Source of the DNA: Cytobacillus oceanisediminis 2691
GTDB taxonomy: Bacteria > Bacillota > Bacilli > Bacillales > Cytobacillaceae
DNA: 64,000 nt
Direction of reading: 5' to 3'
NCBI RefSeq assembly: GCF_000294775.2
Contig: NZ_CP015506.1
Location: forward strand, 2,579,501-2,643,500
Every line of letters begins with the position of its first letter. The stretch's first letter is position 1. Positions 7,064-14,759 of the stretch are shown one piece after another. The notes below the pieces were generated by a model. It saw only the letters and a list, made by a program, of their open reading frames with translations. It was not told where the DNA came from and made no database searches. The translations under genes and the position numbers were made by a program.

Positions 7064-7079
7064 TGTGATTTAAATCACA
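7064..7079. promoter_or_regulatory. Fnr/Crp-type operator (perfect palindrome)
   Basis: TGTGATTTAAATCACA is a perfect 16-bp palindrome matching the Bacillus Fnr pattern TGTGA-N6-TCACA. Its centre (7071.5) is about 41.5 bp upstream of the start expected from the -10 box at 7101-7106, the class II activator position. Confidence 0.75.
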
Positions 7080-7100
7080 TTTAAGTTAGTATAACTTCTA

Positions 7101-7106
7101 TATAAT
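7101..7106 (+). promoter_or_regulatory. -10 box of the haemoglobin gene
   Basis: Consensus TATAAT, with no good -35 hexamer 17 bp upstream, as expected for an activator-dependent promoter with a bound protein at -41.5. Confidence 0.65.
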
Positions 7107-7142
7107 GAAATTAAAAAAATGTAATTCAAGCAGGTGAGAATC

Positions 7143-7526
7143 GTGAATGATTTTAAGACACTTTTTGAAGAAATAGGCGGAACTGAAACCATTAAGAAGC
7201 TAGTGGAGGCGTTTTATCCCCGGGTTTATGCAGATCCTGTATTAAGTCCCCTTTTTGAAGGTGATATAGAGGACATTAAGAGAAAGCAAAAAATGTTTCT
7301 TACGCAATTTCTTGGAGGACCGCCACTTTACAGCCAGGAGTTTGGACCGCCGGCCATGAAACAAAGGCATCTGCCATTTGATATTACACCTTTAAGAGCA
7401 CAAAGATGGCTTGCCTGCATGAAAGATGCTTTCAAGGAAACGGAGCTGGATCAAAACCCTGCATCCGCTCTATTCTATGATCGGCTTTTGCAGGTGGCGG
7501 CCATTATGGTAAATAGTCCAGAATGA
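7143..7526 (+). CDS. yjbI: Truncated haemoglobin, group II (YjbI type)
   Basis: Haem protein of 127 residues of the two-over-two globin fold. The B-helix Tyr is in AFYPRVYADP, the conserved FLTQFLGGPPLY loop is intact, the proximal His is in MKQRHLPF, and the group II Trp is in RAQRWLACM. It closely follows B. subtilis YjbI. GTG at 7143 is chosen because CAGGTGAG lies 4-5 bases before it; a GTG at 7134 is inside that site. Here it is a single gene rather than beside yjbH as in B. subtilis. The promoter has an Fnr-type box, suggesting induction at low oxygen and a role with O2 or NO. Confidence 0.92.
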   Translation: MNDFKTLFEEIGGTETIKKLVEAFYPRVYADPVLSPLFEGDIEDIKRKQKMFLTQFLGGPPLYSQEFGPPAMKQRHLPFDITPLRAQRWLACMKDAFKETELDQNPASALFYDRLLQVAAIMVNSPE

Positions 7527-7530
7527 GAAA

Positions 7531-7552
7531 AGACCTTCCATCCGGAAGGTCT
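7531..7552 (+). terminator. Hairpin after yjbI
   Basis: AGACCTTCC/GGAAGGTCT stem directly after the stop. The following tract is not T-rich, so termination may be weak. Confidence 0.5.
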
Positions 7553-14301: not shown

Positions 14302-14759
14302 TTCCTCACCCTGTCCTTCTCTATTATTAGTCCATGTTACTGTACTATTCAGTATTTTTCAACAAAGAGAGAATTCATTTAATTAATTCTTGTATGGAGA
14401 ATTTTATTTGGTGGTTTTTTGCTTGAATATGGATGTAACATAAGATAATTAGGGTGTCGCATTAAAGTTCAAAATTTGTTCAAAAGTTGTTTTGATGACC
14501 AAAACCCTGTAATAATGCTATTTGAACAAAAATATAAGCTGTCCAAATAGCTTACATTTATTTCCTTCCCACTTTTGTCACAACTTTTCACATTTGCTTA
14601 TGTTAATATCATTTACACAGTGATAACTAAGTTAAATAAAGGTTTTTAAGGATGCTTATGTTTACCAGCTATATATTTTTTTGGCATCTTTGTGAAAACC
14701 CGCACATTGTTTGTGAATTATTTAACAATAGTTTTTGTCAAAAGGAGATGAAACATCAG
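14302..14759 (+). promoter_or_regulatory. Long upstream region of the qox operon
   Basis: About 450 bases with no convincing gene. It is AT-rich, with repeated TTGTCACAA, TTCACA, TTGTGAAAAC and TTGTGAATTA words between about 14570 and 14730. The in-frame ATG at 14652 would add a Cys-containing segment with no ribosome site, so this is read as leader and promoter, not coding sequence. Confidence 0.5.
14711..14728. promoter_or_regulatory. Rex-like operator candidate
   Basis: TTGTGAATTATTTAACAA is one mismatch from the palindrome TTGTGAA-N4-TTCACAA recognised by the NADH-sensing repressor Rex. It sits 13 bases before the qoxA ribosome site, where a repressor could block transcription. Confidence 0.4.

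Follow-up and report, generated by a model that had tools for sequence, protein, structure and literature searches.

The haemoglobin locus and its promoter

As shown in Table 1, the window, by which we mean the whole 64,000-nucleotide stretch of Cytobacillus oceanisediminis 2691 DNA that was analysed, carries a truncated haemoglobin gene and a divergent zinc-ribbon gene, with a Crp/Fnr-type box between them. The GTG at 7143 is the likely haemoglobin start. Domain matches supported the truncated haemoglobin and the zinc ribbon, as well as the hmp, ric, Hcp and Crp/Fnr domains discussed below. Among solved structures, the best relative of the haemoglobin was the Geobacillus protein 2bkm, followed by 5v3t and, in third place, YjbI 1ux8 (E 2.7e-31). 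The nearest protein records, 91-92% identical, were labelled Paenibacillus sp. FSL R5-0490, Cytobacillus firmus and C. oceanisediminis, labels that may be outdated.

Table 1 Features of the haemoglobin locus in window coordinates.
Feature	Position	Strand	Basis or remark
Divergent zinc-ribbon protein (PF09855, DUF2082), 68 aa	6787-6993	-	domain match
Putative Crp/Fnr-type operator TGTGATTTAAATCACA	7064-7079	.	sub-type GTGAT-N4-ATCAC, centre at -41.5
-10 hexamer TATAAT	7101-7106	+	22 nt 3' of the GTGA-N6-TCAC core, without a -35
Predicted transcription start	7113	+	implied by the -10 hexamer
Ribosome-binding site AGGTGAG	7132-7138	+	sequence
Truncated haemoglobin, group II-like, 127 aa, GTG start, yjbI paralogue	7143-7526	+	PF01152, E 2.1e-31
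Terminator-like hairpin directly 3' of the haemoglobin stop	7531-7552	.	T tail on the - strand

Two further haemoglobin matches were found in the genome, yjbI itself and a partial one (44%) elsewhere. The genome's own yjbI lies at C1:1490340-1490699, beside a YjbH-like gene, and is 47% identical to the window haemoglobin; the 350 bp before it hold no box within 2 mismatches. The window gene is therefore not yjbI, as it had been called in the earlier note, which had placed B. subtilis yjbI beside yjbH, and the regulatory rewiring proposed there falls away: nothing is rewired at yjbI, because the boxed gene is a paralogue and yjbI itself has no box. B. subtilis YjbI, a group II truncated haemoglobin of the yjbIH operon, resembles the window protein in family and through 1ux8, but the window gene is a paralogue that lies elsewhere, has no yjbH neighbour and carries a box. 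YjbI is described as acting against protein hydroperoxidation (PMC9536834).

The box is a perfect, two-fold symmetric 16-bp palindrome of the form TGTGA-N6-TCACA, centred on 7071.5, which places it at -41.5 relative to the start predicted from TATAAT. The promoter scan gave no -35/-10 pair that uses this TATAAT, and the hexamers 16-18 bp before it read ATTTAA, CATTTA and ACATTT. Sequence and scan thus agree with the earlier note, which had described such a palindrome about 41.5 bp before the implied start and the lack of a usable -35. It had also called this the geometry of Fnr activation; the class II Crp/Fnr-type geometry relative to the -10 holds, but Fnr as the reader is doubtful. Only 0.0375 perfect TGTGA-N6-TCACA sites are expected per dinucleotide-shuffled window, and GTGA-N6-TCAC-N22-TATAAT did not occur in 400 shuffles of the window, while the three one-mismatch boxes in the window are not unusual against a shuffled mean of 1.75. 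Across the whole genome, 15 perfect palindromes were found versus 2 for the reversed pattern, and TGTGAA-N4-TTCACA, a Rex-like form, accounts for 5 of the 15. Control of the divergent zinc-ribbon gene by this box was rejected, the hexamer at class II distance on that side being TTTTCA, with no -10. Elsewhere in the window, a pair of TGTGA-N6-TCACA boxes, each with one mismatch, occupies 14691-14727, with 21 bp between their centres; they stand roughly 28 and 49 bp upstream of the ATG at 14748, the probable true start of an oxidase subunit II gene.

Conservation, inner bases and genes sharing the promoter

The earlier note had proposed a search for the palindrome before the haemoglobin in related genomes. 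In such a search, the box preceded a TANNNT hexamer in 78 of 80 orthologous upstream regions, taken from records named Cytobacillus, Neobacillus, Lederbergia, Evansella and others; the two box-less loci were L032, with just 99 bp of upstream sequence, and L088. The spacing between core and -10 was 22 in 73 of the 78 and 21 in the other 5; since the loci are related, 78 is not 78 independent events. In an alignment of 78 rows, the fixed box positions reached 1.4-2.0 bits and TATAAT 1.3-1.7 bits, versus 0.06-0.90 bits for the gap and the 25 nt upstream, with the box columns inflated because the rows were aligned on their best consensus match. Conservation is the strongest support for the box, which on this ground is very probably a control site.

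For the inner bases, only GTGA, TCAC and TANNNT were fixed and the inner bases were left free, and both sets of boxes were collected by protein search. The fifth and tenth bases were T/A in 70 of 78 haemoglobin boxes. In the boxes before a nirJ-like gene beside fnr they were G/T in 26 of 29 and T/A in none (L155, a thirtieth fnr-side locus, gave no box). The box at 7064-7079 has T/A and lacks the inner code of the fnr-side boxes. We also looked at genome G076, whose sole Crp/Fnr match is L020-type (see below). In two of its regions, picked for three pattern matches, with the remaining boxes inside not preselected, class II boxes before ric-like, nirJ-like, ywiC and DUF2249/NnrS-like genes all start with GTGAT.

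The promoter is shared with hmp, which in the same genome is preceded by TGTGATTTATATCACA-N22-TATAAT (spacing counted from the GTGA-N6-TCAC core). No places in this genome other than those before the haemoglobin and hmp come within one mismatch of GTGATNTANATCAC-N22-TATAAT. At the same tolerance, 44 of 51 genomes had 1-5 such places, and the promoter was present in 156 of 193 family genomes, while this 18-base signature was nearly absent from the reversed control (0/51; one match each in 4/193). Among 29 loci examined from the 51-genome search, 13 lay before hmp and 12 before the window-type haemoglobin, and the other 4 preceded a second small globin, a cytochrome c, a HemQ-like gene and an oxidase subunit II gene (301 nt). 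In Neobacillus dielmonensis, another small globin-like protein (L236; 118 aa) stands behind an exact match to the promoter pattern. This composite pattern is the specific one. When the genome itself was scanned for GTGA-N6-TCAC-N22-TANNNT, one mismatch allowed, no excess appeared (39+35 versus 46+38 in the reversed control). Of the 16 exact matches in that scan, ten stand some 30-80 nt ahead of a start codon and two lie 220-330 nt ahead of oxidase-subunit-II-like genes; another is 194 nt upstream of a miaB-like frame, and three precede no gene start.

The putative targets, as named from sequence, are NO-defence genes: hmp, hcp, ric-like and globin genes. Among loci chosen by the pattern, hcp beside an L020-type gene has such a promoter in L242, L243, L244 and L247; hcp also adjoins an L020-type gene in L250, but there the nearest box lies past another gene. 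The hmp gene at L262 sits between ftsZ-like and spoIIGA/sigma-factor-like genes, likewise at L272, L273, L275 and L280, and no Rrf2-type gene was seen among the hmp neighbours, judged by eye. The designations nirJ-like, ywiC, ctaA, NnrS-like, DUF2249, qNor/norB-like, nosZ-like and HemQ-like, and also oxidase subunit II, ftsZ, spoIIGA, lactate dehydrogenase, miaB and YjbH-like, are presumptive and follow the appearance of the sequences; nirK scored below the NCBIfam cut-off (210 versus 296 bits). On the 387-kb second contig (G000:C2), the class II box GTGAAATAAATCACT precedes a beta-propeller-like lipoprotein gene (L267) whose -10, TATGCT, is weak.

Crp/Fnr proteins and their co-occurrence with the promoter

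The genome's four strongest HTH_Crp_2 matches are L019, L020, L021 and L022, with further matches L023 and L024 and a weaker Crp-like protein, L029. L019 is an Fnr with cluster cysteines in its tail (GCENCPAVYC). L020, encoded at C1:3822681-3823370, contains a single cysteine. L021 has a CxxC tail, and in L022 the final arginine of the R-E-x-x-x-R pattern is missing. This recognition pattern is common to the Fnr, L020 and L021 types, and cross-binding is therefore likely. The 21 L020-type rows have 0-3 cysteines, exactly one in 13 of them, and none has a CxxC in its last 30 residues, where the Fnr rows have CxxC....C. In a PDB search, L020 matched 3r6s, 4byy and 4cyd better than DNR 3dkw, a weak match (E 6.9e-10) behind many Crp/Fnr proteins. 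In the regulator tree, the Fnr, L021 and L020 rows group apart, with weak deep joins; two long rows, L253 and L254, were unplaced and left out of the L020-type counts. Among the relatives examined, an L020-type gene lies next to hcp in five loci, next to a qNor-like gene in one and next to ric together with a nosZ-like operon in one. In its own genome, L020 adjoins none of hcp, qNor-like or ric, and no class II box precedes it. For the L021 type, a class II GTGA-N6-TCAC box lies before the regulator gene itself in 27 of 30 loci (L175-L204), many of which also have a divergent cytochrome-c-like gene with a second box; this is apparent self-control or Fnr control.

We then compared the presence of the promoter alone with that of the regulators in the 193 family genomes, at a threshold of E <= 1e-60 (for Fnr-like proteins also 1e-40). 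The promoter was found in 155 of 173 genomes with an L020-type protein and in 1 of 20 without. It likewise tracks Fnr, being present in 150 of 167 genomes that have Fnr and in 6 of 26 that do not, a result that is confounded with the L020 type. In genomes having only one of the two, the promoter occurred in 4 of 5 with L020-type and no Fnr-like protein and in 1 of 13 with an Fnr-like protein (E <= 1e-40) and no L020-type, a contrast with Fisher p 0.008 if genomes are treated as independent of descent; they are not independent, and 11 of the 13 belong to one genus. With Fnr called at 1e-60, the counts were 5 of 8 for L020-type without Fnr and 0 of 2 for Fnr without L020-type. G066, G219 and G222 combine an L020-type protein with just a distant Fnr-like one, and the promoter is present in 1 of the 3.

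In a second set of 50 searched genomes having the window-type haemoglobin, 47 had an Fnr-like protein. Three of the 50 (G036, G044 and G045) have an Fnr-like protein and no L020-type, and retain 11, 12 and 11 of the 12 box positions. Loss of the box with loss of Fnr was not seen in this set, as all three Fnr-less genomes keep it, two in weaker form: G040 at 12/12, G047 at 11 and G046 at 9 with a poor -10. In G040 (Cytobacillus depressus) the L020 gene may be cut short, the match ending at residue 207 with a stop, and G047, G048 and G050, which have just 39-40% L020 relatives, were counted as L020-like. Co-occurrence alone cannot separate Fnr from the L020 type, because in the 50 genomes the box survives the loss of either.

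The reader of the box

We regard it as moderately probable that the box is the class II activator site of an NO-defence regulon, read mainly by the cluster-less L020 rather than by the iron-sulphur Fnr. In the mechanism we infer, an L020-type dimer would bind GTGAT-N4-ATCAC at -41.5 and, when NO is present, contact or recruit RNA polymerase from there. The second truncated haemoglobin and hmp would be switched on at once, with hcp joining in some relatives, and ric/ScdA and other NO-related genes would belong to the regulon behind looser boxes. The haemoglobin itself would help to bind or oxidise NO.

The earlier note had named Fnr, and in that form the reading is that L019 activates the haemoglobin at low oxygen, the T/A inner bases being a promoter-specific variant. 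The genome does have an Fnr with a C-terminal cysteine cluster, PMC8151001 (Table 1) gives the B. subtilis Fnr box as TGTGANNNNNNTCACA, an Fnr-like protein accompanies the haemoglobin in nearly all of the 50 genomes, including the three L020-less ones in which the box persists, and promoter presence tracks Fnr across the family. Against this, the T/A code is absent from all 29 boxes beside fnr, the box is kept in each Fnr-less genome of the 50, and in the family set the promoter occurs in four of the five genomes that have an L020-type but no Fnr-like protein. Bacillus Fnr shares box class, class II geometry and taxon with the present case and differs in its C-terminal CxxC....C and in the G/T fnr-side inner code. 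Fnr is probably not the main reader, and we consider its activation of the haemoglobin at low oxygen unlikely. Of the earlier note, then, the box observation was right and the gene name wrong, and its Fnr reading is possible as second best; oxygen-dependent induction may occur, with Fnr sharing the site.

Such sharing could go further, the L020 type serving for NO and Fnr for anoxia, each able to replace the other. The box stays whichever of the two is missing and their recognition-helix pattern is common, yet the sub-codes differ between the two gene groups, suggesting some separation, and we think this improbable. It is very improbable that the reader is an L021-type paralogue or the redox repressor Rex. 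The L021 type has the same helix motif and similar general boxes before its own gene, but it is missing from 17 of the 50 genomes, 16 of which keep the box at at least 9 of 12 positions, and it was dropped on that absence. Rex sites are likewise TGTGA-N6-TCACA, with the consensus TTGTGAAW4TTCACAA (PMC2883068). Rex was dropped because the inner bases are T/A here, not A/T, so that TTGTGAA-W4-TTCACAA is not matched; the -41.5 position also suits an activator. Three Rex-like TGTGAA-N4-TTCACA sites do occur in the genome, before a lactate-dehydrogenase-like gene (L013-L015, G000:C1:5358115-5358249).

Among known systems, NssR of Campylobacter jejuni would by analogy be the closest working model for control by L020. 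NssR is described as a Crp/Fnr-family activator for nitrosative stress with a single cysteine and a small regulon that includes the globins cgb and ctb, one of them truncated (PMC4601167), and its site is given as TTAACnnnnGTTAA (PMC1274295). Compared by description only, the two cases share Crp/Fnr-type control, two globins of which one is truncated, and the single cysteine, as in most L020-type rows. They differ in phylum, in the site, which here is TGTGAT-N4-ATCACA, and in the regulon, where here the partner globin is hmp and hcp and ric seem to be included. HcpR, with the consensus wTGTGAnnnnnnTCACAw, and DNR/NnrR are reported to control hcp, nor, nir and dnrN (PMC1274295). These regulators of anaerobes (HcpR) and proteobacteria (DNR/NnrR) are likewise Crp/Fnr-type, but L020 has better PDB matches than DNR; HcpR was set beside L020 by description.

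NO sensing in Gram-positive bacilli is ascribed mainly to NsrR and ResDE (PMC8139620). NsrR is an Rrf2-family repressor with sites of the form gATGyAT-N5-ATrCATc and has hmp as a core target in NO defence (PMC1274295). Control of hmp by NsrR in Bacillus resembles the system proposed here in serving NO defence with hmp at its centre, and differs in that hmp here has a Crp/Fnr-type box and ftsZ-like/spoIIGA-like flanks. At the level of titles and abstract openings, and in a collection that lacks most subscription papers, no paper came up that links a Bacillaceae truncated haemoglobin with Fnr or with an NO regulator of the Crp/Fnr family.

We tentatively suggest, at somewhat less than even confidence, that the Cytobacillus/Neobacillus family has its own cluster-less NO regulator, which reads GTGAT as opposed to the fnr-side GTGAG, took hmp from NsrR, recruited a duplicated truncated haemoglobin and so reached the NssR globin pair independently. 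With a candidate regulator, a sharp signature of 18 promoter bases and a difference of two letters from the fnr-side boxes, the idea can be tested directly, and the promoter offers a regulatory clue to the role of the second truncated haemoglobin.
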